NCBI RefSeq assembly: GCF_025999835.1
Contig: NZ_AP025628.1
Span: 1,302,001 to 1,366,000 of the forward strand
DNA length: 64,000 nt
Reading direction: 5' to 3'
From: Caldinitratiruptor microaerophilus
GTDB lineage: Bacteria > Bacillota > Sulfobacillia > Symbiobacteriales > ZC4RG38
The notes under the pieces were generated by a model, which did no database searches, had not been told where the DNA came from, and was given only the letters and a program-made list of their open reading frames with translations. Below, in pieces: positions 1,665 to 34,425 of this stretch. A program made the position numbers and the translations under genes. Within the stretch, counting starts at the first letter, position 1, and each line of letters opens with the position of its first letter.

Positions 1665-1704
1665 GCGCCGTCTCTCATCTCCTCCTGCGGCGTGACTTCT
1701 GGAG

Positions 1705-14773: not shown

Positions 14774-14983
14774 GCCATGTCCCTCCCTGCGTTCAGACTT
14801 CACTGCCCCCAACCGTCCCCTCACTCCATGTTTTCGTCTTGAACGGATGGGTTTCTGGGGGTCGGCGTCCGCCTCCGGCAGGACCGCCCCGTGCGGGCGG
14901 CGAAGCGTGATCCGCAACCGGGGTCGAGCGCACGGCCGCCGCGTGAGGCCGGCGCCCAGGATGGACGGAGGAGTGACACCACC

Positions 14984-15727
14984 GTGACCGACAGGAAGAC
15001 CGCGATCGTGACCGGCGGCGCCCGGGGCATCGGGCTGGCGATCGCCAGGAGACTGGCCCGCGACGGCCTCCGCGTGGCCATCGCCGACCTGGACCTGGAG
15101 AAGGCCGAGCGCGAGGCTGCCGCCATCCGGTCGGAGGGCGGCGAGGCCATGGCCATCCGGGCGGACGTCACCGACCCGGCCGGCGTCGAGGCCATGGTCC
15201 GGGCGGTGGTCGATCGCTGGGGCCACCTGGACGTGCTCGTCAACAACGCCGGGATCGCCGGCCGCACGGCGCCCATCCAGGACCTGGACGTGGAGGACTG
15301 GCAGCGGGTGATCGACGTCGACCTGACCGGCGTCTTCCTCTGTTGCCGGGCGGCAGTGCGGGCGATGCTCCCCCGCGGCAGCGGGCGGATCATCAACATC
15401 GCGTCCATCGCCGGAAAGGAGGGCAACCCGACCCTGGTGCCCTACTCGGCGGCGAAGGCCGGGGTGATCGGCCTCACGAAGGCCCTGGGGAAGGAGCTCG
15501 CTCAGTCGGGCATCCTGGTCAACGCGGTCGCCCCGGCGGTGATCGAGACGGAGATCCTGCAGCAGATCGCCCCGGAAACCGTGCAGTACATGCTCAGCAA
15601 GATCCCCATGGGCCGGGCCGGGAAGCCCGAGGAAGTCGCCGAGCTCGTCTCCTGGCTCGCCTCCCCGGCCTGCTCGTTCTCCACGGGCGCCGTCTTCGAC
15701 CTGAGCGGCGGCCGGGCGACGTACTGA
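14984..15727 (+). CDS. SDR-family oxidoreductase, FabG-like
   Basis: Classical short-chain dehydrogenase of 247 residues. It shows the Rossmann motif TGGARGIG (residues about 10-17), NNAG near residue 87, the catalytic serine in NIASIAG and YSAAKAG with Tyr/Lys, plus a Gly-rich SDR C-terminus. GTG start 14984 is 7 bases after GGAGGAGTGA. Its stop overlaps the next gene as TGATG. The substrate cannot be told; FabG-like 3-oxoacyl reductases and sugar dehydrogenases share this pattern. Unusual in being translationally coupled to a secreted peptidase. Confidence 0.88.
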   Translation: MTDRKTAIVTGGARGIGLAIARRLARDGLRVAIADLDLEKAEREAAAIRSEGGEAMAIRADVTDPAGVEAMVRAVVDRWGHLDVLVNNAGIAGRTAPIQDLDVEDWQRVIDVDLTGVFLCCRAAVRAMLPRGSGRIINIASIAGKEGNPTLVPYSAAKAGVIGLTKALGKELAQSGILVNAVAPAVIETEILQQIAPETVQYMLSKIPMGRAGKPEEVAELVSWLASPACSFSTGAVFDLSGGRATY

Positions 15728-17304
15728 TGCCGAGGCGTGGCCTGAAGGCTCTCGTGGCTGCCGCCGCGTTGGCGGCGGTCGTGGCCGGGCTGGCCTCCCG
15801 GGCGGCTGCGGCGCCGGCTGCGGCGTACCGGGGGTTCCCGGTCGCCCGGCTGGTCGTCGACGGGCTGGCCATCGAGAACGGCGTGCCGCCGCTCCGGCTG
15901 GGCGGCCAGACGTTCGCCCCGCTGCAGGCGATCGCGGAGGCGGCAGGTGTCCGGCTGGAGTGGGATCCGGTGCAGGCCCGGATCCACGTCGACGGGCAGC
16001 CGGCTGCGACAGCGATCCCGACCGTCACCGTGGACGGGACCGTTCTCGTCCCCGTCCGTCCGGTGGCCGAGGCCATCGGAGGTACGGTCCGCTGGGACCC
16101 GGAGACGGAGACGGCCTTCGTCTACGGCCCGGGGCGCGACCCCACCTCGGCGGCGGTGGTCCATCGCGGTGGAGGCGTTCCCCTGGCGCTCGCGCGGGCG
16201 CTCGCCGGCGACCTGGACAGGATGTGGGCCCGGGTGGCCGGGGAACTCGGTCACTCGCCGGCCGGCAGGACGCCGGAGGTGTGGCTCTTCGAGGACCGCG
16301 AGGAGTGGTACCGCCACCTGGTGGCAGAAGGCGTGCCGGAGGCCAGCGCGCGCCGGGTCAGCGAGCACGCGGAGGGCACCGCGAGCGGGGGGGACCACGT
16401 CCACGTGGTCGTTTCCGCCGACGAACCCTTCGAAGCCGAGGTCCGCGTCGCCCTGCTCCACGAGCTGGGCCACGTCGCCCTCGATCGCCGGAACCTGAGC
16501 GGGCGGCTGCCGCAGTGGGTGCACGAGGGCCTGGTGGAGACGGTCGCCCGCCGCCTGGAGGGACACCTGCCCACCACGCCGCAGGGTAACCGCTGGCGGG
16601 GCGCGCTCCGCAAGCAGGTCCTCGACGACTGGCTCGAAGGCCGCCGGGCCGGCCTCATCGCCGACCCGGACGAGTTCTTCGATCGCTTCGCCGAGTTCCC
16701 GGCCCACGCAGAGGCAGCGCTGGCGGTCGACCGGCTCGAGCGCGACCGGGGAGCCGAAGCCCTCGCCCGGTACGTCGACGCCGTCGCAGCGGGCGGCGAA
16801 CCCCATGCCCTGTTCGAGGAGATCTTCGGCGTCTCAATGGAAGCGTTCGAGTCGGAGTTCCAGTCCGCACTGCGGGAGGGGGCCCTGCGGCGCCCGGCGC
16901 TGCGCGCGGTCTTCGAGGTACCGGCCGGCACCCGGGCGTGCCTGACCGCCTACGGTCCGGGACGGAGCCGGAGCGACGTGTGGACCCTGGACACCGCCGG
17001 GCAGGTGACCGTCACCGTCGGGCCGGACGGTACCGCATCGGTCAGCGCCCCCCGACGGCGCCGGTACTACGGCCGGCTGGACGAGCCGCCCGGCGGCGAT
17101 GAGGCGGTCGTCTTCGTCACCTGGGACCAGCCCGCCGAACTGGGTGGCCGGCGCCTCAAGGCGGTCGGTATCGCCTTCCAACGCGCCGGCGGCGAGTGGG
17201 CCTGGACCGCTACCAGCCTGTACTGGACGGACGGCCAGCCCGAACTGTGGTTGGACCCTCAGACGCCGGCGGGGCTCCGCCTCGTCGAGGTCAGCTCCCG
17301 GTGA
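15727..17304 (+). CDS. Secreted HELGH metallopeptidase with copper-amine-oxidase-N-type domain
   Basis: 525-residue exported protein. A signal peptide (to about residue 28, ASRAAAAP) leads into a copper-amine-oxidase N-terminal-like domain (residues about 35-135: LRLGGQTFAPLQAIAEAAGV, VTVDGTVLVPVRPVAEAIGG), a cell-surface module common in Firmicutes. The middle is a gluzincin-like domain with zinc motif HELGH at residues 245-249 and a downstream glutamate in WVHEGLVETVA. The C-terminal part (from about 395) is a beta-rich stretch of no known family to me. Likely an extracellular or wall-associated peptidase; activity is inferred from the motif. Confidence 0.8.
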   Translation: MPRRGLKALVAAAALAAVVAGLASRAAAAPAAAYRGFPVARLVVDGLAIENGVPPLRLGGQTFAPLQAIAEAAGVRLEWDPVQARIHVDGQPAATAIPTVTVDGTVLVPVRPVAEAIGGTVRWDPETETAFVYGPGRDPTSAAVVHRGGGVPLALARALAGDLDRMWARVAGELGHSPAGRTPEVWLFEDREEWYRHLVAEGVPEASARRVSEHAEGTASGGDHVHVVVSADEPFEAEVRVALLHELGHVALDRRNLSGRLPQWVHEGLVETVARRLEGHLPTTPQGNRWRGALRKQVLDDWLEGRRAGLIADPDEFFDRFAEFPAHAEAALAVDRLERDRGAEALARYVDAVAAGGEPHALFEEIFGVSMEAFESEFQSALREGALRRPALRAVFEVPAGTRACLTAYGPGRSRSDVWTLDTAGQVTVTVGPDGTASVSAPRRRRYYGRLDEPPGGDEAVVFVTWDQPAELGGRRLKAVGIAFQRAGGEWAWTATSLYWTDGQPELWLDPQTPAGLRLVEVSSR

Positions 17305-18115
17305 CGAAGTGCCGGTAGAGGGCCGCGGAGACGTCCGCGAGGAGCAGCGACGCCTCGTTGTCCGGATGGAAGCGCAGGTCGCGGCAACCCCGGGTCATCA
17401 GGGCGAGCACGTACCGCCGGCCGCGCGCCTCGACGAGGCCCACGTCGTTGCGGGTGCCCCGGATCGCCCCGCTCTTGGAGGCGACCCGCACGGCCGGCTC
17501 CCTGCCCGGTTCGACGAACCCGTCGTAATCCGGCAGGCGGCGCGTGATTTGCTCCGTGTACTGCTGCCGGCCCAGGATGTCCAGCATCTCGCCGCAGGCG
17601 GCGGGCGTCAGGACGGCCCGGGCGGCGATGAGCCGCATGAGACGGCCGAGGTCGGCCGGGGTGGACCGGTTCGGCGGCGCTCCCTCCGGCGCCCGGAAGA
17701 GCTTGTGATCGAGGTGCGTCCCCCGCAGCCCGAGTTCCCGCATCGAGTCGTTGACGGCCTCACGGCCCACCCGGTCGATGAGCAGGTTGGTCGCCGTGTT
17801 GTCGCTGACGGTGATCATCAGCGTGGCCAGGTCCTTCACGGTGAGCGCCAGGCCGGGCGTGAGGTCCTTGAGCACCCCGGAGCCGGGGACGATGTCCTCG
17901 GCCCGGAGCACGAGGCGCTCGGCAAGGTCCAGACGCCCCTCGCCGGCCTGCTTGTAGACTTCGTACAGGATGGGGAGCTTGATCGTCGAGGCGGCCGGGA
18001 ACGTCTCCTCGGCGTTCCACTCCACCGTCTCGCCGGTGTCGAGGGACTGCGCCCAGACGCCCAGGGTGCCGCTGAAGCGCTCCGCCAGTGCGCGGATGTC
18101 GTCCGTGATCGCCAA
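17291..18115 (-). CDS. Class-A-beta-lactamase-like serine hydrolase
   Basis: Penicillin-binding/beta-lactamase fold protein of about 274 residues. The SxxK motif is ASTIKLP (near residue 48), SDN is in ITVSDNTATN, and the third motif is KSG in ASKSGAIRG rather than KTG. The class-A ExxLN motif (Glu166) is not evident, so a carboxypeptidase or esterase is as likely as a beta-lactamase. I use the TTG at 18115 (GGAGG 12 bases upstream); an ATG at 18191 is possible. Neither gives a signal peptide, which is odd for this family. Its end overlaps the convergent peptidase gene by 14 bases. Confidence 0.78.
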   Translation of the reverse strand: MAITDDIRALAERFSGTLGVWAQSLDTGETVEWNAEETFPAASTIKLPILYEVYKQAGEGRLDLAERLVLRAEDIVPGSGVLKDLTPGLALTVKDLATLMITVSDNTATNLLIDRVGREAVNDSMRELGLRGTHLDHKLFRAPEGAPPNRSTPADLGRLMRLIAARAVLTPAACGEMLDILGRQQYTEQITRRLPDYDGFVEPGREPAVRVASKSGAIRGTRNDVGLVEARGRRYVLALMTRGCRDLRFHPDNEASLLLADVSAALYRHFVTGS

Positions 18116-18252
18116 CCGAGGGGGAAGCCTCCTTCCGTATGGCCGGCCGAGCCCTGTACCCGACGGAACCCTCCCGGCCAGCCCTCTCATCCCGAGGATT
18201 TGACACGGCCGCCGCTCTTCCTGGCCGCTGCCCGCGCCCCTTGTGCATCCCC

Positions 18253-19014
18253 CTAGTGCATCACCCGCCCCCCGTCGACCACGATCACCTGGCCGTTGAC
18301 GTGAGACGCGGCCGGCGACAGCAGCCAGGCGACGACCTCCGCCACCTCCTCGTACGTCCCGAGCCGGCGCAGAGGGGTCTGAGCCGCCATGGCGGCCAGC
18401 GCCTCCTCCGGCAGCGCCCGGGCGAGCGGCGAGTCGAGTGGCCCCGGCGCCACGCAGTTCACCCGGATCCCGAGCGGCCCCAGTTCCCGGGCCGCCGACC
18501 GGGTGAGGCCGACGAGCCCCGCCTTCGCGGCGGCGTACGCCGGTCCGAACGAGCCACCGGTCAGGGCAGCCACCGAGCTCACGTTGACCACCGCCGCGCC
18601 CCCGGGCGCCCCCGCCAGGAGCGGGAGCGCGTGATACAGCACGTGGAACGGCCCGTCGAGGTCGACGGCGAGGACCTGCCGCCACCCGGCCGGGGTGACG
18701 GCGGGCCACGGGGCGACGGGCGCGACCCCGGCGTTGTTGGCGATCAGGTCGAGCCCGCCCCAGGCGTCCTCGACCTGCCGCACCAGGTCGGCGACCTGGT
18801 CCGGGTCGGCCAGGTCGGCCCGCAGGACGAGGGCCCGCCGGCCCGCGCGCTGCACCTCGCCGGCGGTGTCCCGGGCGCCCGCCTCGCCGCGATGGTAGTG
18901 GACGGCGACGTCCGCCCCCGCCGCGGCCAGCCGCCGCGCGACCGCGGCGCCCAGGCCCCGGGATGCGCCGGTGACCAGGGCTCGCCGCCCGCTGAGGTCA
19001 GTGGTCACCGCCAC
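18253..19014 (-). CDS. SDR-family oxidoreductase in ligase/reductase cluster
   Basis: Classical SDR of 253 residues with TGASRGLG (near residue 13), NNAG, NVSSVAAL and YAAAKAG; C-terminus VNGQVIVVDGG. FabG-like by pattern. GTG at 19014 is 7 bases after GGAGGAGG and overlaps the end of the acyl-reductase gene by 10 bases; a second GTG at 19008 gives the classical GTGA overlap. Last gene of a tightly overlapping minus-strand operon, so it probably reduces or oxidises a product of the neighbouring chorismate/ligase/reductase enzymes (inference). Confidence 0.88.
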   Translation of the reverse strand: MAVTTDLSGRRALVTGASRGLGAAVARRLAAAGADVAVHYHRGEAGARDTAGEVQRAGRRALVLRADLADPDQVADLVRQVEDAWGGLDLIANNAGVAPVAPWPAVTPAGWRQVLAVDLDGPFHVLYHALPLLAGAPGGAAVVNVSSVAALTGGSFGPAYAAAKAGLVGLTRSAARELGPLGIRVNCVAPGPLDSPLARALPEEALAAMAAQTPLRRLGTYEEVAEVVAWLLSPAASHVNGQVIVVDGGRVMH

Positions 19015-20354
19015 GGCTGCCCCTCCTCCCGGAAGGCCTTGCTGGTGAAGAGGAACTCCGACAGCCGGCCGTGGTGCGGCGCGCCGGGCTCCGTGAACCA
19101 GGGCGGCACCGGGCCGGCGAACACCTTGGCGATGGTCGGCTCCGTGAGGCACGCCTCGACGAGCCCCGGGTCCCGGGTGAGCAAGGTGACCGCGAGGGAG
19201 CCCCGCAGAAGAGGCAGGGGATCGGCGCCGGCCGGGAGCTCGGCGGCCGTCGCCCAGGGCGCCGGCAGCTCGAGGCCGAAGGGCGGGGCGAAGGGGTCGG
19301 GGCAGCGGACGAGTTCGGGCTGAACGAAGGTGACGCCGTCGTGGACGACCACCCGGCCGGGGGTCCGCCGCGCCGCGTCCGGGTCCTTCCAGGCGGGGAC
19401 CCGGGCGGCGGGGTCGAGGGGGTCGAGCAGGGGGATCGCCGCCAGCTTTCCGGCCAGGCCGTCCAGGAGGCCCGGCACCTCGCCCCGGACCAGGACGGCA
19501 CTCGCGCAGGTGCACTTGCGGCCGCCGTCGTGGAGGATGCACTCGAGGAGGAAGCCGGCGGTCGCGTCGGGGTCGGCCGGGGCGTCGACCAGCACCCTGC
19601 TGCGGCCGGGGCCGTTCATGAGGACGCGGGCGTCGCGGCCGAGGAGGTCGGCCAGGACCGGGCCGCCGTAGGCGACGGTCCGGTCGCACGCCTCCACCAG
19701 CGCGGGTACCAGGTCGTGGCCGCCCGGGAGCAGGGCGATCCGCTCGGCCGGGAAGCCGGCCGCCCGCAGGGCCAGGGCCAGGCGCCAGGGCGTCAGCGGG
19801 TCGTCGGAGCCGGGCCGGACGGCGACGCTCCAGCCCATCGCCAGGGCGAGGACCCAGGTCAGGTGCACGGTGGGGTGGTTCGACGGGGCCACGAACCCGA
19901 GCACCCGTCCGGCCGGGACCCACGCGTACGTGCGGCCGTCCGGCAGCGCGACCCGGCGGGTACGGAAGACCGTGAGGTCCCCGCCCGGCGCCTGCCAGTG
20001 CAGTGCGGAGCGGATCTCGCGCAGCCCGCCGGCGAGTTCGGCGAGGGCCTGGCGGCTCCAGGCGAGCGGCGCCCCGGTGGCCCGGGTGACCAGGCGGGCG
20101 TGGTCCTCCGGCCCCAGGCCCCCCAGCCGGCTGCCGGTCAGCAGCTCGCCCGCCCGGGCGATGGCGTCCCAGCGCGATTCCGGGTCCTCCTCCGGGCCGG
20201 GGGCAGCGGCGCGCAGCCGCGACACCACCCGGTGCACCAGGAGGGCAGGCGCGTGGTGTACGCGGGCGAGGGGTTCGCCGCGGTAGTCCCGGAGGACGGA
20301 CGTCGTCAGCGAAGCCGCTTCGTGGCCACAGCGCCAGATCGGCACCTCCAGCAC
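19005..20354 (-). CDS. LuxC-like acyl reductase (aldehyde-dehydrogenase superfamily)
   Basis: 449-residue member of the aldehyde-dehydrogenase superfamily resembling acyl-CoA/acyl-protein reductases. Evidence: GFVAPSNHPTVHLTWVLALA (cofactor domain, residues about 153-172), and the nucleophile in GGRKCTCAS with Cys281, followed by Val-rich strands. In LuxC-type enzymes this cysteine takes the acyl group from an activated donor and NADPH reduces it to aldehyde. It begins one base after the stop of an adenylating ligase gene (TGA-C-GTG), the same pairing as LuxE/LuxC. The natural acyl substrate is unknown; the linked chorismate enzyme hints at an aryl acid. Confidence 0.78.
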   Translation of the reverse strand: MLEVPIWRCGHEAASLTTSVLRDYRGEPLARVHHAPALLVHRVVSRLRAAAPGPEEDPESRWDAIARAGELLTGSRLGGLGPEDHARLVTRATGAPLAWSRQALAELAGGLREIRSALHWQAPGGDLTVFRTRRVALPDGRTYAWVPAGRVLGFVAPSNHPTVHLTWVLALAMGWSVAVRPGSDDPLTPWRLALALRAAGFPAERIALLPGGHDLVPALVEACDRTVAYGGPVLADLLGRDARVLMNGPGRSRVLVDAPADPDATAGFLLECILHDGGRKCTCASAVLVRGEVPGLLDGLAGKLAAIPLLDPLDPAARVPAWKDPDAARRTPGRVVVHDGVTFVQPELVRCPDPFAPPFGLELPAPWATAAELPAGADPLPLLRGSLAVTLLTRDPGLVEACLTEPTIAKVFAGPVPPWFTEPGAPHHGRLSEFLFTSKAFREEGQPWR

Positions 20355-20355
20355 G

Positions 20356-21417
20356 TCAGTACACCCCCTCGACCTCGGGTCCGCTGCCCCCCAGCGGCGC
20401 CACCCGGGCCAGGCCGTCCCACGGGTCCGGCAGGGAGGGCGGCACCCGGATCGCCCGGTCCCGCTCCAGATGCCACGGCAGGAAGAGCTCGCGGGTGAGG
20501 ACGCTCAGGCGCACCTGCCCCTCCTCGCCGTACCCCACTTCCCTCGAGGGGTCCCGGGGGTCGACCAACCGCACCACCGCCCCGGGCGACGGCGGCACGA
20601 AGACGCAGCGATGGGGATCCCCGGGGCGGCGGGGGCGCTGGCAGGCGATGCCCATGAGCGTGTTGCCGTACCAGCCCACCACGGTCACGCCGGGGAGCAG
20701 TTCCTCCTCCAGCAGCCGGAGGGCCTCGTCCGACAGGCTGGTGCCGAACCAGATGATCCCCTTCACCCGGGCCCGCAGCCGTTCGTACGCCTCCGGGTGC
20801 TCGCACAGCGCCTGCAGGAGCGGCGGGGTGGTGGTGACCACCGTGACCGGCTGGGTCCGGAGGATCGCCAGGGCCTGCTCGATCACGTGGGCGGTGTAGC
20901 GGCGGACCTCGTCGAGCCGGCCGGCCCGGTACAGGCGTTTCACCCAGCGCGGGTCCAGGTCGACGGTGTGGCACAGGGAGCCGCGCAGGCGCGCCAGCCG
21001 GGCCACGCTGGTCCCGACGAGGTGGGGCCCGCTGGGCCCGACGTGCAGCCAGTCGCCGGCGGCGGGGTCAGGGACGTGCTCGTCCCGGGGGCCCCGGTGG
21101 GCGCCGGGAAAGCCGTGCAGGTCGAGGATCCGGCTGATCCGCAGCACGCCCCGGTACCGCTCCCGGGCGTCGACGATGCGCCGGGGCGGTCCGGTGGTCC
21201 CGCCCGTCTCCCACACGGCGAAGGGGCCGCGCGCGCCGCGGGGGATGAGGTCGGCGGCGGGGACCGTCCGCCACTCGTCGGCCACCGGGGGAAAGCGCGC
21301 GAGGTCGGCGAAGCCCCGGACGTCGCGGCGCGGGTCGAAGCCAAGAGTCTGCGCCCGCCGGAGCCAGTACGGCGAGCCGGTCTCTGGATCGAAGTGCCAG
21401 GCGATGATCGCCCGCAC
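20356..21417 (-). CDS. LuxE/PaaK-like adenylate-forming ligase
   Basis: About 353-residue acyl-adenylating enzyme. The P-loop-like motif ETGGTTGPP lies near residue 70; IIWFGTSLSDEALRLLEEEL and GWYGNTLMG are typical of the PaaK/LuxE branch. The protein is shorter than PaaK and appears to lack the mobile C-terminal AMP-ligase subdomain, as acyl-protein synthetase LuxE does. GTG at 21417 is the first plausible start; the frame is open back to the preceding stop (about 14 codons) without another start. Likely activates a carboxylic acid for the adjoining reductase. Confidence 0.75.
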   Translation of the reverse strand: MRAIIAWHFDPETGSPYWLRRAQTLGFDPRRDVRGFADLARFPPVADEWRTVPAADLIPRGARGPFAVWETGGTTGPPRRIVDARERYRGVLRISRILDLHGFPGAHRGPRDEHVPDPAAGDWLHVGPSGPHLVGTSVARLARLRGSLCHTVDLDPRWVKRLYRAGRLDEVRRYTAHVIEQALAILRTQPVTVVTTTPPLLQALCEHPEAYERLRARVKGIIWFGTSLSDEALRLLEEELLPGVTVVGWYGNTLMGIACQRPRRPGDPHRCVFVPPSPGAVVRLVDPRDPSREVGYGEEGQVRLSVLTRELFLPWHLERDRAIRVPPSLPDPWDGLARVAPLGGSGPEVEGVY

Positions 21418-21457: not shown

Positions 21458-22711
21458 TCATGCCCGCTCAGCGTCCACCACCTCCGCCCCGAGCGCCTCC
21501 AGGGTCCGGCGGGCCTTGGCGAGGCACTCCGCCCACTCGGCCTCCGGCTCGCTCTCCGGCACCACCCCGGCGCCGGCGCGTACCCGGACCGTCCCGCCCT
21601 CGATGGCGGCGGTGCGGATGGTGAGCCAGAGCTGGACGTCCCCGCCGGGGAGCAGCGCGCCCACGGCCCCGGCGTACCAGCCGCGGGGGACCGGCTCGAG
21701 CGCCTCGATCAGGGCCACCGCCGGCCCGCGCGGCACCCCGCTCACCGTCCCGGCCGGGAAGCACGCCCGGATGAGGTCGGCCGGACCGGCGTCCTCCCGC
21801 AGTTCCCCGGCGATGTGCGAGGCCAGGTGCACCAGCCCCGGGTGGCGCTCGGGCACCAGGAAGGACTCGACGGCCACGGAGCCCGGCCGGCACACGGACA
21901 GGAGATCCCGCCGGCCCTGCTCGACGGCCACCGCGTGCTCGAAGCGGTCCTTGCGGCTGGCCAGGAGGGCAGCAGCCGGTCCGGCCCCCTCCGGCCGGGT
22001 GCCCGCCAGGAGGTGCAGTTCGGCCCGCCGGCCGGTCAGGGTGACGAGGGGCTCGGGCGAGACGCCGGCCAGGACCGGCGCGCCGGGGCCGTCGGCGAGG
22101 AGGAACCTCAGCCCCGGCGGGTCCGACGCCGTGAGGCGGCGGAACACCCCGGCCGGCGGGAGCCCGCAGGGCGCGGACAGGGGCACCGAGAGGACGACCT
22201 TCTGCAAGACCCCGGCGGCCATCCGGCGCCGGGCCTCCTGGACGGCGGTGGAGAACCCTGCCCGGTCCCAGAGCGGCCGGGCGGCGGCCGGCGGGCCGCT
22301 GCCGGTTCGCACGCCGCCGGAGGCCCCGGGCGCGCCGGCCGGTTCGGGGGCCGGCAGCTCCCCCCGGTACCAGAGCGTGCCGGTGTGCCGGTCGAACAGG
22401 GCCGCGGCGCCCGGCAGCCAGAACCGGGCCGAACCGTCCCAAGCGAGGGTCCCCACCACCGCGCCGAGGAGGGCCGCCGCGCCGGGCGGGAGCGCGCCGG
22501 CCGCCTCCGGGGCGGCCCTTCCCGCCAGGGACAGGGCGCCTTCCAGTGTCGACGCCCGGGCCACCGGCTGCCAGGCCACCAGGTCGTAGCGCCTCCCAGC
22601 CGCCACGAGGCCCCCCAGGACGGCCACGGGCGGGGCGAGCGCTGCGGCGAGGTCGGCCGGACCCCAGGCGGGGAGCGGTCGGGACCGTGCGGGGGGGTCA
22701 CCCGGGCCCAT
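21458..22711 (-). CDS. Chorismate-utilising enzyme (isochorismate synthase/TrpE/PabB family)
   Basis: 417-residue chorismate-binding enzyme. The C-terminal half shows the family blocks QKVVLSVPL (near residue 190), AGVSPEPLV, LLAGTRPEG, then HIAGELRED, CFPAGTVSGVPRG and RAGAGVVPESEPEAEW. A lysine in the QKVVLS position is found in water-using isochorismate synthases (EntC/MenF), where TrpE and PabB usually have Gln; the TVSGxP block, however, looks TrpE/PabB-like. No glutamine amidotransferase gene is adjacent. I therefore favour isochorismate or salicylate formation, with ammonia-using activity as the alternative. Overlaps the upstream cyclase gene by 14 bases. Confidence 0.83.
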   Translation of the reverse strand: MGPGDPPARSRPLPAWGPADLAAALAPPVAVLGGLVAAGRRYDLVAWQPVARASTLEGALSLAGRAAPEAAGALPPGAAALLGAVVGTLAWDGSARFWLPGAAALFDRHTGTLWYRGELPAPEPAGAPGASGGVRTGSGPPAAARPLWDRAGFSTAVQEARRRMAAGVLQKVVLSVPLSAPCGLPPAGVFRRLTASDPPGLRFLLADGPGAPVLAGVSPEPLVTLTGRRAELHLLAGTRPEGAGPAAALLASRKDRFEHAVAVEQGRRDLLSVCRPGSVAVESFLVPERHPGLVHLASHIAGELREDAGPADLIRACFPAGTVSGVPRGPAVALIEALEPVPRGWYAGAVGALLPGGDVQLWLTIRTAAIEGGTVRVRAGAGVVPESEPEAEWAECLAKARRTLEALGAEVVDAERA

Positions 22712-23381
22712 CGGGGGTCCCCCCTTCCAGGGCGACGGCCCGGACCGGCGCCGCCTCGGCGCCGTGCACCACGATCGGCAGCGCCGAGAGCCAGACGCGC
22801 CGCGAGCGCAGGGCCGCCAGGTTGCGGATGTACTCGAGGATCGGGATGCCGGCGCCGAGAAGCGACCGGTGCACCGGGAAGGCGCGGTCGCCCGGCTCCT
22901 CGGTGAGGCAGTCGAGGCCGACCAGCCGCACCCCCCGCTCGACGCACCACGCGGCGGCGGTGGCGTCGAGGTACGGGGGCTTCTGCCAGAAGTCCGGGTC
23001 CCCCCAGTGGCGGTCCAGGTAGTCGGTGCGAACGAGGAGCCGGAGCCCGCGCAGGTCCTCGCCGCCCATGACGGCGTCGAGGTCGGCGGCGGTGATCGGC
23101 TCGCGGAGGCCCTTGTGGGTCAGGTCGGCCACCACGGCCGGGCCCAGGAAGATCGCCGGGTCGAGTTCGGCCACGCCGGGCGCGCCGGGGAAGAAGTGGC
23201 TCGGCGCGTCCACGTGGGTCGCGTTGTGGGGGTTCATCACGAACTGGCTGAACGTGCGGCCCTGGCCTGCGGGGTCGGTGTCCGGGGTCAGGATCCGGCG
23301 CAGGTCGAAGCGCGCGTACCAGGCCGCTCCGTACGCCGGCATGCCGGCGCGAAAGCCGTGGGTGAGGTCGACGATTCGCAC
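22698..23381 (-). CDS. Cyclase/kynurenine-formamidase-family metal hydrolase
   Basis: 227-residue protein of the cyclase (Pfam PF04199) family. The metal site motif is present as H-x-x-T-H-x-D-x-P-x-H (NPHNATHVDAPSHFF, near residue 52), a variant of the usual HxGTHxD. Other family parts are GLRLLVRTDYLDRHW and GLDCLTEEP. Members hydrolyse amides (formylkynurenine), or act on polyketide or isatin-type rings. First gene of the overlapping minus-strand operon. GTG start at 23381 without a clear ribosome-binding site. Confidence 0.85.
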   Translation of the reverse strand: MRIVDLTHGFRAGMPAYGAAWYARFDLRRILTPDTDPAGQGRTFSQFVMNPHNATHVDAPSHFFPGAPGVAELDPAIFLGPAVVADLTHKGLREPITAADLDAVMGGEDLRGLRLLVRTDYLDRHWGDPDFWQKPPYLDATAAAWCVERGVRLVGLDCLTEEPGDRAFPVHRSLLGAGIPILEYIRNLAALRSRRVWLSALPIVVHGAEAAPVRAVALEGGTPDGPG

Positions 23382-23494
23382 GGCCGGTGAGGGCGTCTGC
23401 CCCGCGCCCCCTTTCGCGCTGTGGTGCTGCCATCGTATGAAGGGACCCCGGCCCTGGCCCGCGCATAGAAGTGGCCCACGGGAGGTGCGCCGCG

Positions 23495-23956
23495 GTGGAG
23501 ATCGGGCCGATGGCCCTGCACGAATGGCCGTGGCTCCTCGCCCGGTCGGTGGCCACGGGCTGGGAGCAGCTCATCCCGGCGCAGCGGGCGGCCACCACGC
23601 CGGCCTTGTTCGCCGCGCGGGTGGAGCACATGCTGCGCCTGGCGCTCGGCTTGCCGGGAGGTACCGCCCTCGTGGCGCGGGAGCGGGGGGAACCCATCGG
23701 GTACACCGTCGTGGCCGTGGCGCCGGACGAGCTCACCGGCATGCCCTGCGGCCACCTCGTCGACATCTGGGTCGAGCCCGGGCGGCGCGGCAAGGGGATC
23801 GGCCACCGGCTCACGGCCGCCGGGGAGGCGCACTGCCGCGCGCTCGGCCTTCCCCTGGTCCGCCGGGTGGTGGCGGCGCACAACCGAACCTCGCTCGCGC
23901 ACGCCCTCGCCGACGGCTGCCAGGTCGAGCGGCTCACCCTCGTGAAGGTGCTCTGA
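23495..23956 (+). CDS. GNAT-family N-acetyltransferase
   Basis: 153-residue GNAT protein. The acetyl-CoA pyrophosphate loop is seen as VEPGRRGKGIGHRL (near residue 95), preceded by the beta-4 strand HLVDIWV. GTG at 23495 is 7 bases after GGGAGGTG and fits the family start better than an upstream in-frame GTG at 23471. It is divergent from the cyclase gene with 113 bases between them and is followed 24 bases later by the E2-like gene, so the two plus-strand genes are an operon beside the ligase/reductase operon. Acceptor unknown. Confidence 0.85.
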   Translation: MEIGPMALHEWPWLLARSVATGWEQLIPAQRAATTPALFAARVEHMLRLALGLPGGTALVARERGEPIGYTVVAVAPDELTGMPCGHLVDIWVEPGRRGKGIGHRLTAAGEAHCRALGLPLVRRVVAAHNRTSLAHALADGCQVERLTLVKVL

Positions 23957-23980
23957 CGCCCCGGGGCGGAGGTGAGGGCC

Positions 23981-24889
23981 TTGTCCGCAAGCGTCGTCAT
24001 GCCCGCCGGCGGCACGGTGCTCCAGTGGCTCAAGCGGCCCGGCGACTGGGTGGCGCCCGGGGAAGCCGTCGTCACCGTCGCGGTGGGCGGAGCCGCCCAC
24101 GCCCTCCCCGCGCCGGCCGGCGGCGTGCTGGCGGCCGCGCTGGTGCGGCCGGGGAGCGCGGTCGCCCCCGGCGAGGACCTCGCCTACATATCGCCGGCCG
24201 TGGCCGGACCGGGGGGCCAGCGGCTCCTGCCGTGGGACCACCTGCGCCTGCGAATCGCCCACCACATGCAGTACAGTTCGAACGCGGCAGCCCACGTGAC
24301 GACCGGGGTCGAGGTGGACGTCTCCCGCCTCCAGTCGCTGCGGCGGGCGCTCCGGGAACGGGGGATGCCGATCGGGCTGACTCCGTTCCTCGTGCGCGCC
24401 GCCGCCGAAGCCCTCCTCGACTGGCCGTGCCTCAACGGGCAGGTCACGCCGCTCGGCCTCGTGCTCCCGGACCGCGTCAACATCTGCGTCCCGGTCGACG
24501 TGCCGGGAGGAGTCGACCTGATCGTGCTCCGGGACGCCCCGTACAAGACCGTGTCCCACCTCGCCGCCGAACTCCGTTACCTGAGCGCCCTCGCCCGCGC
24601 CGGATACGGCGGCCCTCACATCAGCGAGGGGGGCACCTTCACCGTGACCAACCCCGGCAGCCTGGGGTCCGTCTGGGGGACGGCCGTCATCAACCAGCCC
24701 AACTGCGCCATCCTGGCGTGCCAGGCGGTCGTCGACCGGCCGGTGGCCCTTCCGGGCGGGCGGATCGAGGTCCGGCCGGTCATGAACCTGAGTCTCTCCT
24801 TCGACCACCGGGCCCTGGACGGCGTGGTCACCCTGGGGTTTCTCAACCGGGTCAGGGAAGTCGTGGAGGCGGCGAACGTCCCGGTCTGA
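23981..24889 (+). CDS. Stand-alone E2-like acyltransferase lacking the lipoyl lysine
   Basis: 302-residue relative of 2-oxoacid dehydrogenase E2 proteins. Residues 1-66 fold like a lipoyl domain (GTVLQWLKRPGDWVAPGE, then PAPAGGVL), but where E2 has the lipoylated DK the sequence reads VAVGGAAH, so Gly37 replaces the lysine. There is no recognisable E1/E3-binding domain; the catalytic domain starts near residue 85 and keeps the acyltransferase motif DHRALDG (His276, Asp280). No E1 or E3 genes adjoin. TTG start chosen because GGAGGTGA lies 5 bases before it. Probably transfers an acyl group without a swinging lipoyl arm (inference). Confidence 0.8.
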   Translation: MSASVVMPAGGTVLQWLKRPGDWVAPGEAVVTVAVGGAAHALPAPAGGVLAAALVRPGSAVAPGEDLAYISPAVAGPGGQRLLPWDHLRLRIAHHMQYSSNAAAHVTTGVEVDVSRLQSLRRALRERGMPIGLTPFLVRAAAEALLDWPCLNGQVTPLGLVLPDRVNICVPVDVPGGVDLIVLRDAPYKTVSHLAAELRYLSALARAGYGGPHISEGGTFTVTNPGSLGSVWGTAVINQPNCAILACQAVVDRPVALPGGRIEVRPVMNLSLSFDHRALDGVVTLGFLNRVREVVEAANVPV

Positions 24890-24911
24890 GCCCGTCGTCG
24901 GGAAGAAACCG

Positions 24912-24955
24912 CCCCCCGCACCGGGCCGCTGCCCTCGCGCGGCCCGGCCGGGGGG
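24912..24955 (+). terminator. GC hairpin after E2-like gene
   Basis: CCGGGCCGC (24921-24929) pairs with GCGGCCCGG (24939-24947), extended by CCCCCC (24912-24917) and GGGGGG (24950-24955), starting 22 bases after the E2-like stop. No U-run follows, so this is a probable but not classical terminator. Confidence 0.5.
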
Positions 24956-25072
24956 ACACTGTTCACGGTTCGTTGTGGCGCTTTCCTCGTGCCGGCGCGC
25001 CCGTCCCGGCAGGGAACCGGGCGGGGGACTCCGAAACTTGCATTAGATGGTAACAAGGCGGGGACGCAGCGC

Positions 25073-26971
25073 ATGCGACAGCCAACCCGGATCGTCCGCC
25101 CCTACGGCACCTGGGACAGCCCCGTCAGCCCGGCCCGGCTCGCCCAGGGAATCCGGCTGAGCGACGTGCAGTGGGATACCGACGGCAGGACGCTGGTCTG
25201 GCTCGAGGGCCGCTCGGCCCAGGGGGTGCTGGTGGCGGCGGGCCAGGACGGCGAGGCCCCCCGGGACCTGGCGGCCGGATTCTCCGTGCGGGCCCGGGTC
25301 GGGTACGGCGGCGGGGATTTCACCGTGGCCCACGGCACCGCCTACTTCGTCGCCGACGGCCGCCTCTGGCGGCAACCGCTGCGGGGCGGCCCCGTCGTCC
25401 CCGTCACCCCGGCCTTCGGCCAGCCGGCCGCGCCGGCGGTCTCCCCGGACGGGCAGTGGATCGTGTACGTGCACTCGTACGAGCGCCAGGACTGCCTGGC
25501 GATCACGCACGCCGGAGGCGACGGCTGGCCCCAGCGCCTCGTGTGGGGCGACGACTTCTACATGCAGCCCCGCTGGCACCCGGATGGGCGGCGGATCGCC
25601 TTCATCGCCTGGAATCACCCGCAGATGCCGTGGGACGGGACGGAGCTGCGCCTGGCCACGCTGGAGGTGGGCGGTGGCCGGCCGCCCGCCGTTACCGGCG
25701 TTCGCACCCTGGCAGGCGGCACCGGGGTGTCGATCTTCCAGCCCGAGTTCTCCCCGGACGGCCGCTACCTGGCCTACGTCTCCGACGAGTCCGGCTGGCC
25801 GAACCTGCACCTGTACGACCTGGAGGCGGGCACCCACCGCGCGCGGGTCACGGAGCCGGCCGACCACGGCCGGCCGGCCTGGGTGCAGGGGCTGCGGACG
25901 CACGGCTTCAGCCCCGACGGCCGCTACATCTACTACATCCGCTCTTCCCAGGGATTCAGCTCGCTGTGGCGGTACGACCTGTCCGAAGGCCGGGCGGAAC
26001 CGGTCGCCCCTCCGCCGGACGAGTACACGGTCCTTTCCCAGATCGCCGTCGCGCCCGGCACCGGGGAGATCGCCCTGATCGCCTCGTCCCCGGTCGCCCC
26101 GCCCCGTGTCGTCGTCCACCGGCCGGGGCAGGGTACCCGGGTGCTTCGCCGCAGCGCGCCCGAGGACATCCCGCCGGAGGCGCTCGCCCGTCCCTGGGCC
26201 GTCTCCTGGCCCACGGCGGGCGGCCAGGAGGCTCACGGCCTCCTGTACGAGCCCACGAACCCGCGCTTTGAGTCGCCGGGGCGGCCGCCGGGCATCCTCC
26301 GCATCCACGGCGGCCCCACATCCCAGTCCCTGCCGGGCTTCTCGCCGGACGCGCAGTTCTTCGCGACCCGGGGCTACGTGGTCCTCGAGGTGAACTACCG
26401 CGGCAGCACCGGCTACGGGCGGGCCTACATGGAGGCGCTGCGGGGAAACTGGGGCGTGGTGGACGTGGAGGATGCGGTCAGCGCCGCCCGGTTCCTCGGG
26501 GAGGCGGGCATCGCGGACCCGGACCGGCTGGTGATCATGGGTGGAAGCGCCGGCGGTTACACGGTCCTCCGGGCGCTGACCACTCATCCCGGCACGTTCC
26601 GGGCAGGGATCTCCCTGTACGGCGTCTCCAACCTGTTCACGCTGGCCGCCGAGACCCACAAGTTCGAGGAGCGCTATCTGGACTCGATCGTGGGGCCGCT
26701 GCCGGAGGCCGCGCACCTGTACCGCGAGCGGTCCCCCCTCTTCGCCGCCGACCGCATCACGGACCCGCTGGCCCTGTTCCAGGGTGCCGACGACGAGGTC
26801 GTTCCCCGAAACCAGTCGGATGCGATCGCCGAGTCCCTGCGGCGCCGCGGGGTGCCGCACGAGTACCACGTGTACGAGGGCGAGGGGCACGGCTGGCGCA
26901 AGGCGGAGACCGTGGAGGCGTTCTACCGCGCCGTGGAGGCGTTCCTCCGCCAGCACGTGCTCTACGCCTGA
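25073..26971 (+). CDS. S9-family prolyl-oligopeptidase-like serine peptidase
   Basis: 632-residue alpha/beta-hydrolase peptidase with an N-terminal beta-propeller of TolB/WD-like repeats (SPDGQWIVYV, HPDGRRIAFIAW, SPDGRYLAYVSDE) up to about residue 370, then the catalytic domain: ILRIHGGPT oxyanion region, MGGSAGGY with Ser492, GADDEVVP with Asp574, and EGHGWRK with His606. Acyl-aminoacyl peptidase or dipeptidyl peptidase type, probably cytoplasmic because no signal peptide is visible. ATG at 25073 matches the family N-terminus. EamA transporter follows 23 bases later. Confidence 0.92.
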   Translation: MRQPTRIVRPYGTWDSPVSPARLAQGIRLSDVQWDTDGRTLVWLEGRSAQGVLVAAGQDGEAPRDLAAGFSVRARVGYGGGDFTVAHGTAYFVADGRLWRQPLRGGPVVPVTPAFGQPAAPAVSPDGQWIVYVHSYERQDCLAITHAGGDGWPQRLVWGDDFYMQPRWHPDGRRIAFIAWNHPQMPWDGTELRLATLEVGGGRPPAVTGVRTLAGGTGVSIFQPEFSPDGRYLAYVSDESGWPNLHLYDLEAGTHRARVTEPADHGRPAWVQGLRTHGFSPDGRYIYYIRSSQGFSSLWRYDLSEGRAEPVAPPPDEYTVLSQIAVAPGTGEIALIASSPVAPPRVVVHRPGQGTRVLRRSAPEDIPPEALARPWAVSWPTAGGQEAHGLLYEPTNPRFESPGRPPGILRIHGGPTSQSLPGFSPDAQFFATRGYVVLEVNYRGSTGYGRAYMEALRGNWGVVDVEDAVSAARFLGEAGIADPDRLVIMGGSAGGYTVLRALTTHPGTFRAGISLYGVSNLFTLAAETHKFEERYLDSIVGPLPEAAHLYRERSPLFAADRITDPLALFQGADDEVVPRNQSDAIAESLRRRGVPHEYHVYEGEGHGWRKAETVEAFYRAVEAFLRQHVLYA

Positions 26972-30671: not shown

Positions 30672-31844
30672 TCACTCCGAACGCAGCGCGGCGATCGGGT
30701 CGAGGCGGGCCGCCTGGTAGGCCGGGTATACGCCGAAGAACAGGCCGACGAGGATCGAGAAGGTGAGGCCGGCCGTGGCTGCCATCAGGTTCACCTGGGC
30801 AGGCCAGCCCGCCATCCGGGCGATCCCCGCGTTCACCAGGGCACCGGTCCCGAGACCGATCACCCCGCCCACCGCGCTCAGCAGGACCGCCTCGGCCAGA
30901 AACTGGATCAGGATGTCGCGCTGGCGCGCCCCCACCGCCTTCCGGATGCCGATCTCCCGTGTACGCTCGGAGACGGACACCAGCATGATGTTCATGATCC
31001 CGATCCCGCCGACCACCAGGGAGATCCCGGCGATGGCCCCGAGCATCAGGGTCAGGGTGGCCGTGGTCTGCTCGATGGTCTGCACGATCTGGTCCTGGCT
31101 GAACACCCGGACCGGGTCGAGGCCGTCGGTGCGCGGGTGGCGCAGGCGGAGGATCCGCAGCACGTGGTCGGTGGCGATCGAGGCCAACTCGGGCGAGCGG
31201 GCCTGCAGGTACAGCGAGCTGACCTGGGTGCCCAGGAGCGTCCGGGCCGTCGTGATCGGGATGTAGAGGTAGTTGTCGGAGCTTTGCCCGAAGGCGGCTC
31301 CCTTGGGCTCCAGGACCCCCACGAGCGTGAAGGGCTGGCCCTGGATCCACACGGTCTCGCCGGGACGCGGCGGTGGACCGTCTCCGACGAGGTCCTCGAA
31401 CGCCGTGGCCCCGGCCACCGCCACCCGGCGGCGGCCCTCGACGTCGTCCGCGGTGAGAAACCGCCCCTGCGACACCTTCAGGTCGCGGACGCGGTCGAGC
31501 CCGGCGGTGACCGCCTGCACCCGCACGTCCGCCGAGGTCGTCCCCCACTTGACGCGCAGCTGCCCTTCGATCACGGGGATGGCCATGGTGATGGTGTCCA
31601 CGCGGCGCGCCAGGTCGGCCGCGTCGGCCTCGGTGAGCACCGTGCCCCGGAGCGGGCTGACGATGATCAGGTTCGACCCCAGGCTCTGCATCCGCTGCGC
31701 CACCTGGTAGGTCGCCCCCTGGCCGATGCTGACCAGGGCCGTCACGGCGGCGACCCCGATCACGACCCCCAGGACGGTGAGGGCCGAGCGCAGCTTGTTG
31801 CTGGCGATGCCCTTCCAGGCGACGCCCAGCAGCTCACCGCTCAC
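30672..31844 (-). CDS. MacB-type ABC exporter permease
   Basis: About 390-residue permease: N-terminal TM (LTVLGVVIGVAAVTALVSIG), a large extracytoplasmic MacB core domain (residues about 45-260) and three C-terminal TMs (GAIAGISLVVGGIGIMNIML etc.) with the family motif RTREIGIRKAVGARQRDILIQ. Lacks a fused ATPase, which is the preceding gene. GTG 31844 (after GGGGGTGG) is preferred to GTG 31853; either overlaps the ATPase gene. In Gram-positive bacteria such systems pump antimicrobial peptides or cell-wall-active compounds. Confidence 0.92.
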   Translation of the reverse strand: MSGELLGVAWKGIASNKLRSALTVLGVVIGVAAVTALVSIGQGATYQVAQRMQSLGSNLIIVSPLRGTVLTEADAADLARRVDTITMAIPVIEGQLRVKWGTTSADVRVQAVTAGLDRVRDLKVSQGRFLTADDVEGRRRVAVAGATAFEDLVGDGPPPRPGETVWIQGQPFTLVGVLEPKGAAFGQSSDNYLYIPITTARTLLGTQVSSLYLQARSPELASIATDHVLRILRLRHPRTDGLDPVRVFSQDQIVQTIEQTTATLTLMLGAIAGISLVVGGIGIMNIMLVSVSERTREIGIRKAVGARQRDILIQFLAEAVLLSAVGGVIGLGTGALVNAGIARMAGWPAQVNLMAATAGLTFSILVGLFFGVYPAYQAARLDPIAALRSE

Positions 31845-32601
31845 CCCGTCCACCCCCCTGGCCCGCGTCTGCCGCCCTTTCCGGGCCCGGACTCGCCGCC
31901 CTCCCGGCCCCGGCCTGCTTCGGCTGCTCGACGATCTCCTCCCGCACCAGCCGCCCGTCCCGCATGTGGACGATGCGCTGGCAGTGCAGTGCCACGTCCG
32001 GGTCGTGGGTGACGATCACCACCGTCTGCCCCGCCCGGTGCAGTTCCTGGAACAGGGCCAGGACCTCCTCCCCGGACGCCGAGTCGAGCGCGCCGGTGGG
32101 TTCGTCGGCCAGGAGCAGACGGGGTCCCGCCGCCAGCGCCCGGGCGATCGCCACCCGTTGCTGCTGCCCCCCCGAGAGCTGCGTGGGCAGGTGGTGCAGC
32201 CGGTCGCCGAGCCCGACCGCCTCCAGCGCCTCCTTGGCTCTCCTCCTCCGCTCGGCGGAGGGCACGCGCCGGTACAGGAGCGGGAGTTCCACGTTCTCCA
32301 GGGCCGTCAGGCGCGGTAGCAGGTTGAACTGCTGGAAGACGAAGCCCACCAGCCGGTTGCGGATGCGCGCCAGCTCGTCGTCCGTCCGGCGGGCAACCAC
32401 CTCGCCCGCCAGGACGTACTCCCCCTCGGTGGGACGGTCCAGGCAGCCCAGGATGTGCATGAGCGTGGACTTGCCCGAACCGGAGGGACCCATGATCGCC
32501 ACCATCTCGCCGCCGGCCACGTCCAGATCGATGCCGGCCAGGGCCTCCACGTCGCCGGCCCCGGTCCGGTACACCTTCCGGAGCCCCCTCACGGCGATCA
32601 C
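31834..32601 (-). CDS. MacB/LolD-type ABC ATPase
   Basis: 255-residue ATPase with Walker A GPSGSGKST (near residue 37), signature LSGGQQQRVAIARAL and Walker B LLLADEPTGALD, plus the H-loop VTHDPDVA. GTGA overlap with the adaptor gene before it and overlap with the permease after it show a single translationally coupled operon. Powers the MacAB-like exporter. Confidence 0.95.
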   Translation of the reverse strand: MIAVRGLRKVYRTGAGDVEALAGIDLDVAGGEMVAIMGPSGSGKSTLMHILGCLDRPTEGEYVLAGEVVARRTDDELARIRNRLVGFVFQQFNLLPRLTALENVELPLLYRRVPSAERRRRAKEALEAVGLGDRLHHLPTQLSGGQQQRVAIARALAAGPRLLLADEPTGALDSASGEEVLALFQELHRAGQTVVIVTHDPDVALHCQRIVHMRDGRLVREEIVEQPKQAGAGRAASPGPERAADAGQGGGRGER

Positions 32602-34286
32602 CGGTTGCCGCCTCCCTGCGGGGCCTGCCGGTCGTGGGGTTGCCCGCCCGCCGGGCGCTGGCCCCCACCCGGGCCGAACGGCAGCCCGAACCCTCCGGTA
32701 CCGGGCGGCCGGAACCCCGCGCCCTGCGTGCCGGATCCTGCCGGTCTCCGGGCGACGACGACCGTGTCGCCCTCCGCCAGCCCCTCCAGCACCTCCACCA
32801 CCTGCTCGTTCTCCAGGCCGGTGCGGATGGGACGGCGCACCACCTGGTCTCCCTCCGGGACCTGGACGAAGGCCCTTCCACCCTGGCGCTCCACCGCCTC
32901 CGCCGGCACCACGAGGACGCCGTCCTTCGCGGCCACCCGCACGGAGGCCGAGGCGGTCATGCCCGGCCGGATGTCCGGCTGTCCCGGGACGGTGATGGTG
33001 ACGGCGAAGATGGTGACCCCGTTCTGGACCGTTCCCTCCCCGGCGATCTTCTCGACCCGCCCCGTCAGGGTCCGCCCCGGCAGGGCGTTGACGACCACGG
33101 AGGCCGGCTGCCCCGGCCGGAGCCGGGGAACGTCGAGTTCGTCCACCTGCAGGGTCAGGGTGAGGACGCTGGTGTCGACGATCGTCGCCAGGACGCGGGC
33201 TCCGTTCTGGCCCGTCCCGACGGTGTCGCCGACCGCCACGTCGCGCGCGGTGACCACTCCGTCGATGGGGGCAACGATCTTGAGCTTGGCGAGATTCTGC
33301 TCGCGCTGGGCGAGGGTCTCACGGGCCTGCTCGACGGCGATCTGCTCCGCGCGCACCTCCTGCGGAAGCGTGGGGTTTTCGAGGCGCATCACGACCTGCC
33401 CGGCAGTGACCCTCCGGCCCTCGCTCACGAGCACCTCCCGGACCACGCCGGCCGCACGGGCGGTCACCACCTGTTCCTGTCCCCAGACGGTCTGCCCGGA
33501 AAACGACATGCTGCCCTGGGGAACCTCCACGGTGAGCTGCCCGGCATAGCCCGCCCCCAGGACGCCGGTCTCGTCGAGGGCGACGTCCACGTCATAGCTC
33601 TCCACACCGCCCGAGCGCGCCGGTTCGGAGGCGACGGCAACCACGGTACCGGTGAGTTCCCCGTCGAAGGCATCCAGCCGCACCCGCGCCGCCTGGCCCG
33701 TGTGGAAGAACGGCAGGGCCACACGGTTCACGCGCGCGCGGAACAGGAGCTGCTCCCCGGAGGCCACCCACGCGACGGGCTGGCCTGCGCTCACCCGGTC
33801 CCCCCGCTTGACCTCCAGCCGGGAGAGGCGGCCGGATACCGGCGCCCGCACGGTGAGCGCCTCGGACAGGTCCAGCGGGCTCCCTTCCGGGATGCCCAGG
33901 CGCTGATAGAGACGGTTCTCCGCCGCGGCCAGGCTCAGGCGGGCCTGCTCGACCTGCGCCACCAGGTCATCGTTGCGCAGTTCGATGAGGGTCTGGCCCT
34001 TCCGCACGGTGTCTCCTTCCACGAAGTTCACGGCGACGACGGTACCCGAAACCTCGGCGGTGATGTTCGCGCGCTGGCCCGCCTCCAGGGTCCCGGTCCC
34101 GGACACCGTCAGCTCGATGGAGCCCCGGCGCACCGGGACGGTCACCAACCCGGCAGGCGCCGCCGTGCGGGAGGCCCGGTTCGCGAGTTGCCAGCCCAGC
34201 AGCGCGATGACGGCGACCGACGGGAGCGCCACATACGCGAACTGGCGAACCCGGCGAGAAGACACCCGTGCGCCCATCGGTACCAT
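32598..34286 (-). CDS. MacA/HlyD-like membrane-fusion adaptor
   Basis: About 562-residue periplasmic-adaptor-like protein: TM near the N-terminus (FAYVALPSVAVIALLGWQL), lipoyl/barrel-sandwich pieces (VSGTVVAVNFVEGDTVRKGQ and APIDGVVTARDVAVGDTVG), a short coiled coil, and a Gly/Pro/Gln-rich C-terminal tail of about 40 residues. It seems to contain two adaptor-like segments, making it longer than usual MacA (about 370). ATG 34286 is preferred, 12 bases after GAGAGGAG; MM at 34319 lacks a ribosome-binding site. Links the MacB-type permease to the outside. Confidence 0.85.
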   Translation of the reverse strand: MVPMGARVSSRRVRQFAYVALPSVAVIALLGWQLANRASRTAAPAGLVTVPVRRGSIELTVSGTGTLEAGQRANITAEVSGTVVAVNFVEGDTVRKGQTLIELRNDDLVAQVEQARLSLAAAENRLYQRLGIPEGSPLDLSEALTVRAPVSGRLSRLEVKRGDRVSAGQPVAWVASGEQLLFRARVNRVALPFFHTGQAARVRLDAFDGELTGTVVAVASEPARSGGVESYDVDVALDETGVLGAGYAGQLTVEVPQGSMSFSGQTVWGQEQVVTARAAGVVREVLVSEGRRVTAGQVVMRLENPTLPQEVRAEQIAVEQARETLAQREQNLAKLKIVAPIDGVVTARDVAVGDTVGTGQNGARVLATIVDTSVLTLTLQVDELDVPRLRPGQPASVVVNALPGRTLTGRVEKIAGEGTVQNGVTIFAVTITVPGQPDIRPGMTASASVRVAAKDGVLVVPAEAVERQGGRAFVQVPEGDQVVRRPIRTGLENEQVVEVLEGLAEGDTVVVARRPAGSGTQGAGFRPPGTGGFGLPFGPGGGQRPAGGQPHDRQAPQGGGNR

Positions 34287-34425
34287 CGGCCCCAACAACT
34301 CCTCTCTCGGGTCCATCATGTCAAGTGTACCGTGCCAAGGCCTCATGGCGGGTCCCCGCCGCGGCGCCGGGCTACCGCAGGAACCGCGCGGTAGGGGGCG
34401 GCACCGGCCGCCCCTGCCGCAACCC

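Follow-up and report, generated by a model that had tools for sequence, protein, structure and literature searches.

A stand-alone E2-like protein without a lipoyl lysine, possibly a tailoring acyltransferase, beside an aryl-acid reductase cluster in Caldinitratiruptor microaerophilus

What might an E2 acyltransferase do once it has lost the lysine that would carry its lipoyl group? The question is raised by one gene in a stretch of 64,000 nucleotides from Caldinitratiruptor microaerophilus (contig NZ_AP025628.1; hereafter the window). A first-pass annotation, made from the sequence alone, had proposed that the product receives an acyl group from another carrier and not from a swinging lipoamide. 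The reading that we favor, with about as much doubt as confidence, is that an E2 acyltransferase no longer belongs to the 2-oxoacid dehydrogenase complex and now acts as an acyl-CoA-dependent, CAT-like tailoring enzyme on the product of an aryl-acid pathway.

The E2-like gene lies on the forward strand (23981..24889) and encodes 302 amino acids from a TTG start. A GGAGG sequence stands at a normal distance ahead of this TTG, and the alternative GTG at 23972 falls within that ribosome-binding sequence. The frame is clean, with a third-position G+C of 0.93. A gap of 24 nt separates the gene from a GNAT acetyltransferase gene upstream on the same strand (23495..23956; Pfam Acetyltransf_1, 9.1e-12), whose orthologues occupy the same place in loci L063-L065 and are 54.9-56.9% identical. 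The two genes are probably cotranscribed; a promoter and terminator scan of 23300-25200 around the E2-like gene found none.

An E2/CAT-type catalytic domain spans residues 83-298 (24227..24874, forward strand; Pfam 2-oxoacid_dh, 7.6e-53). It keeps the catalytic motif DHRALDG, as the first-pass annotation had said, at residues 275-281 (24803..24823, forward strand; motif comparison). E2 proteins and E2 catalytic cores were the best Foldseek matches of an AlphaFold model (mean pLDDT 81.4, built on a five-sequence alignment), and NCBIfam matches were to ordinary E2 families only, far under their cut-offs (the best, SucB, at 170 bits vs. 379). Ahead of the catalytic domain, a weak Biotin_lipoyl match (5e-6, 26.7 bits) covers residues 5-70 (23993..24190, forward strand). 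About 12 residues separate the two matched domains and no E1/E3 (peripheral subunit-) binding domain family was matched in Pfam, which bears out the earlier description of a lipoyl-domain signature without a binding domain. In a lipoyl scan of the whole genome (G000), the protein scored 30.5 bits vs. 58-85 bits for six ordinary E2s.

The acceptor position of this degenerate lipoyl-type domain reads VAVGGAAH, with Gly37 in place of the lysine. In the model, Gly36 and Gly37 (codons 24086..24091, forward strand) form the turn that joins strands 29-35 and 38-43 (pLDDT about 88-90 there), and the alignment agrees with the placement of Gly37 at the lipoyl-lysine position. The beta1-beta2 surface loop is also about six residues shorter, a feature absent from the first-pass annotation. 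Passages of one account of true lipoyl domains place the lipoyl lysine in this same strand-strand turn, and name the beta1-beta2 loop and the lysine turn as the sites of E1 recognition (PMC6270654).

The loss was compared across 80 E2-family proteins, which were collected by similarity searches and are not a random sample: 66 locus ids yielded 59 proteins after identical ends were merged, and 27 further loci, six of them duplicates, added 21. The lipoyl profile was matched by 70 of these proteins, and lysine is found at the acceptor position in 68 of the 70, the two exceptions being the window protein (L007, Gly) and a protein of genome G019 (L013, Gln). Judged by these 68 sequences that keep it, the missing lysine exceeds chance. 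No lipoyl match was found for L014, L022, L106, L107, L114, and L115, nor for L026, L029, L033, and L100, which are on short loci, may be truncated, and were not counted as lipoyl-domain losses. A sequencing or frame error was considered as an explanation for the missing lysine and rejected, as the frame is clean, L013 also lacks the lysine, and six other proteins lack the domain.

Seven lysine-less stand-alone proteins (the window protein, L013, L014, L022, L106, L107, and L114) form a clade with support of 98/94, and their sister is an ordinary E2 (L009). This tree was built on 51 catalytic-domain rows and left out all of L123-L149 and 16 named rows, among which L115 and L105 are long branches and the rest near-duplicates. 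In a tree of 59 rows that includes L115, the same eight lysine-less proteins fall on one side (89/91), with a warning of possible long-branch joining of L013 and L115. All seven clade members carry DHRA[LV]DG, and the DHRA form is present in all eight lysine-less proteins (the clade plus L115) vs. two of 72 others (L039 and L105). The alignment supports a lysine loss that is common to this clade of stand-alone relatives and would not be a private error of the window protein; no close homologue with an intact lysine was found within the clade, and ordinary E2s elsewhere do have it. There are also related stand-alone E2s in Symbiobacteriales without any lipoyl domain. Because relatives of the window protein are only 31-36% identical to it, a function shared among them is not assured.

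The genes beside the E2-like gene point to aryl-acid chemistry. Divergent from the GNAT gene, at a distance of 113 bases, is a gene for a putative cyclase or metal-dependent hydrolase (PF04199; 22698..23381, reverse strand; orthologues 67-68% identical in L063-L065 and 46% in the plasmid locus L178). Also on the reverse strand are genes for a chorismate-binding enzyme of 417 aa (21458..22711; Pfam and orthologue alignment), an EhpF/GriC-like aryl-acid adenylase of 353 aa (20356..21417; phmmer match to EhpF, 3hgu/3l2k, of 1.9e-49 over the full length), an EhpG/GriD-like acyl reductase of the aldehyde-dehydrogenase family with a conserved Cys281 (19005..20354; orthologues of four genomes 66-70% identical, that of G019 49%), and a short-chain dehydrogenase (SDR) whose gene overlaps that of the reductase (18253..19035; PF13561, 7.5e-65; conserved in L063-L065, L067, and L178). 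Residue K171 of the chorismate enzyme is invariant in four of four orthologues and aligns with a Gln of TrpE; we take a lysine at this position to be a mark of isochorismate and salicylate synthases.

An adenylase of the EhpF/GriC type adjoining an aldehyde-dehydrogenase-family reductase with a conserved cysteine is the arrangement of a two-protein aryl-carboxylate reductase. EhpF itself is reportedly an atypical adenylating enzyme. In the available portion of PMC10179220, GriC forms an acyl-AMP, from which GriD produces an aldehyde by reduction. The EhpF/EhpG system of the Proteus phenazine operon, as far as extracts of PMC11278526 describe it, also pairs an adenylase with a reductase and includes an SDR gene; the chorismate enzyme of the window is shorter than the phzE products tabulated there. 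Searches of six genomes gave no match to phzA/B, a result that does not prove absence as the control genomes were also silent. The neighboring genes would make a small molecule, and together with the E2-like protein they may constitute one pathway.

Other parts of the window hold features of separate interest. In the gene for a protein at 13088-15226, a 243-base unit is repeated in tandem about three times (87% matches; repeats at 13129-13845), and these copies stand behind what appear by eye to be S-layer homology segments. Also by eye, a reverse-strand frame at 17291-18200 resembles a class A beta-lactamase-type serine hydrolase, and a reverse-strand row of ABC permease, ATPase, and membrane-fusion protein genes at 30672-34346 is like a MacAB-type exporter.

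The block of SDR, reductase, adenylase, chorismate enzyme, cyclase, and GNAT genes is also found in genomes G003, G004, and G005, with genes that are 50-75% identical. It is partial in G007, whose contig stops within the adenylase gene; there the SDR is followed by a DAHP synthase gene. The order in G019 is adenylase, reductase, GNAT, an opposite-strand protease-like gene, a second GNAT, and the E2-like gene. G019 also has a further E2-like gene, of the catalytic-only kind, beside a PaaK-type AMP ligase gene at locus L107 (contig C201, 1072-2178 and 2198-3490). The reductase profile was matched at 1e-30 in seven of the 154 genomes of the class, and a lysine-less E2 lies within about 6 kb of the reductase in five of the seven (G000, G003, G004, G005, and G019), although these are not five independent cases because G003-G005 belong to one genus. 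In G007, two lysine-less E2 genes are on other contigs and the reductase contig is too short to judge linkage. No E2-like gene was found in the 17 kb of G077 that were read, where the adenylase and reductase are only distant relatives. The comparison supports the ligase and reductase beside the E2-like gene as real, conserved neighbors.

Adenylase relatives were also found in 28 plasmid records, and six of these loci were read. They hold the adenylase/reductase pair or the adenylase alone, and none of the six gave a match to the E2-like protein; the aryl-reductase block thus extends beyond the cases in which it is linked to the E2-like gene. One of them, on a plasmid of Streptomyces sp. NBC_00998 (L178, 7800-14542), encodes an SDR, reductase, cyclase, DAHP synthase, adenylase, and annotated isochorismate synthase, and this set adjoins carbamoyltransferase and ATP-grasp genes. 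On the Burkholderia ubonensis plasmid pMSMB2035 (L180, 5972-24695), phenazine genes are mixed with genes for a HAD-IIIC phosphatase, a ketoacyl synthase III, and carrier proteins, a mixture that by annotation resembles a tetronate-type module.

The protein has lost its binding domain, its lysine, and part of its E1-recognition loop and keeps the E2/CAT catalytic domain; under the tailoring role proposed here, it would be a copied E2 put to a new use. Chorismate would be converted to an aromatic (or cyclohexadiene) acid, the adenylase would turn this acid into an acyl-AMP, and the reductase would take the acyl-AMP to an aldehyde, which the SDR might reduce to an alcohol. The E2-like protein, as a trimer, would then take an acyl group from a soluble thioester, most likely an acyl-CoA, and transfer it to a small molecule; the likeliest acceptor is a hydroxyl or amino group of the neighboring pathway's product. 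We infer the trimer, the CoA donor, the acceptor, and the membership of the neighboring genes in the pathway; CoA is the likeliest acyl donor by analogy with Agg4-type enzymes.

For this proposal we counted the lysine loss, the seven-member clade, the intact motif, the linkage to the reductase in five of seven genomes, the lack of an E1 for the window copy, the failure to find a free lipoyl domain in G000 or G003, and the hydroxyl-acylating precedent of the tetronate enzymes. On the other side, the adenylase and reductase do not need the E2-like protein, because six of six plasmid loci and the stretch of G077 are without its gene. The retained degenerate lipoyl-type domain is unexplained, the relatives are divergent, and in the Symbiobacterium group the stand-alone E2 adjoins an E1-alpha gene, which suggests oxoacid chemistry. 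If the proposal is right, the full-length lysine-less domain in G019, the shortened lysine-less domain in the window, and the absence of the domain in other relatives may represent stages from a central-metabolism enzyme to a tailoring enzyme. The window protein would be a test case for an E2 that works without a swinging arm, and the product could be sought of an aryl-acid cluster that is conserved in Symbiobacteriales and appears uncharacterised.

The genome that contains the window has seven PF00198 places, namely six ordinary E2s and the window copy. Its six strong E1-alpha and six E1-beta places are each near one of the ordinary E2s, and the genome scan found no strong place of either kind near the window copy. 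Genome scans of G000 and G003 found no free-standing lipoyl domain: the free small domains that a motif scan resolved in these genomes carry the biotin-type MKM, and the other lipoyl-type domains of G000 were, where the scan resolved them, ordinary E2s, biotin-type MKM domains, or secretion-type proteins. Given the six ordinary pairs of E1 and E2, and as no free lipoyl domain turned up, we regard the window copy as an orphan. A split E2 with its lipoyl gene nearby was also considered and rejected, as no such gene turned up when the window, L063-L067, and L107 were scanned for the motif. The same scan detected a split E2 at L154 (G068, contig C47, about 1475-2505, reverse strand), where a separate lipoyl-domain frame lies upstream of a catalytic-only E2.

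The strongest competing account is that the protein remains a catalytic subunit of a 2-oxoacid dehydrogenase and uses in trans a lipoyl domain that belongs to another E2, such as one of the six ordinary E2s, in an OdhA-like arrangement. Split E2s with a separate lipoyl protein do exist, as L154 illustrates, and the isolated catalytic domain of E. coli E2o with a separate lipoyl domain keeps about one-tenth of its catalytic efficiency in the part of PMC5986005 consulted. Moreover, G003, G004, and G005 have an E1-alpha gene positioned between the GNAT gene and that of the stand-alone E2 (L065:12387-13391, L064:9192-10169, and L063:5627-6598). This orphan E1-alpha points back to an oxoacid-related role in those genomes; it is the best argument for such a role and the main fact left unexplained. 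However, no E1-beta was found beside it in any of the three, neither in G000 nor on the short contig of G019 was an E1 gene found near the lysine-less copy, and scans of G000 and G003 yielded no free lipoyl domain. The catalytic-only E2s of other genomes (L150, L151, L152, and L154) are also placed elsewhere in the 51-row tree. We consider transfer in trans unlikely.

It is quite unlikely that the protein is catalytically idle, either as a decaying duplicate of an E2 or as a scaffold for the cluster enzymes. The long branch, the degenerate first domain, and the TTG start would fit such a leftover. In extracts of PMC5986005, Asp374Ala or His375Ala at the corresponding motif residues of E. coli E2o lowers efficiency 54-fold. 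The motif Asp, His, Arg, and Asp are intact in all eight lysine-less proteins, which argues against decay of the group, and the ribosome-binding site and third-position G+C of the gene are good. G019 and two families of the order also retain the linkage.

A direct aryl transfer, in which the protein takes the acyl group from the adenylase (as acyl-AMP) or the reductase (as acyl-Cys) and hands it on to CoA or a different acceptor, so that less of it reaches the aldehyde, is very unlikely: the close linkage to both genes and the second stand-alone E2 beside a PaaK-type ligase in G019 speak for it, but E2/CAT enzymes of known function use thioesters, and the plasmid loci and G077 stretch have the enzymes without an E2-like gene. 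The first-pass annotation had allowed for both CoA and the ligase/reductase as carriers; the loss of the protein's own lysine and the reality of these neighbors agree with a carrier other than its own lipoamide, whereas handover from the ligase or reductase gained no positive evidence. We give the smallest chance to the idea that a Symbiobacteriales E2 core (with the orphan E1-alpha in the Symbiobacterium group) was recruited to a chorismate-derived aryl-acid pathway, where it would itself accept the activated aryl group and build a new conjugate; this would be an E2 chemistry free of lipoamide and without earlier description.

The CAT-like tailoring role that we prefer can be set against known systems. 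Compared with an ordinary E2, of which SucB is the best NCBIfam match, the window protein has the same catalytic domain and motif with a lipoyl-type domain in front, but it has no lipoyl lysine, a shortened E1-recognition loop, no binding domain, and no E1 gene nearby. OdhA, the actinobacterial two-in-one oxoglutarate dehydrogenase, also has an E2 catalytic domain without a lipoyl group of its own; it is fused to E1, whereas no E1 partner is encoded in the neighborhood of the window protein's gene. Chloramphenicol acetyltransferase and the E2 catalytic domain share a fold class. The active-site His of that acetyltransferase is comparable to the His of the E2 catalytic domain in the passages available of PMC5986005.

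The closest parallel comes from tetronate biosynthesis. In the parts consulted of PMC5819245 and PMC7489565, the stand-alone E2-like enzymes Agg4, QmnD3, and AbmA4 are reported to acetylate a hydroxyl. In an abmA4 mutant a compound builds up whose mass is that of the hydroxy intermediate, and in an abmA5 mutant one whose mass is that of the corresponding acetate (PMC5819245, in part); a different role is proposed for AbyA4 in the available portion of PMC3625739. Like the window protein, these are stand-alone E2-type proteins (AbmA4 has 280 aa and AbyA4 251 aa); they lie in a small-molecule cluster and outside a 2-oxoacid dehydrogenase complex, as the window protein may do. Unlike them, and on a comparison by description only, the window protein still has a degenerate lipoyl-type domain and belongs with an aryl-acid reduction cluster without tetronate genes. 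The sequence collections searched held nothing close to Agg4, QmnD3, or AbmA4, and two plasmid proteins tried as Agg4 relatives (L184 and L185) are ordinary E2s. In the openly licensed literature searched, and among the matches listed, nothing described an aryl reductase together with an E2 that stands alone or lacks the lysine, the tetronate enzymes apart. A stand-alone E2 that is free of lipoamide already has precedent in Agg4, QmnD3, and AbmA4.
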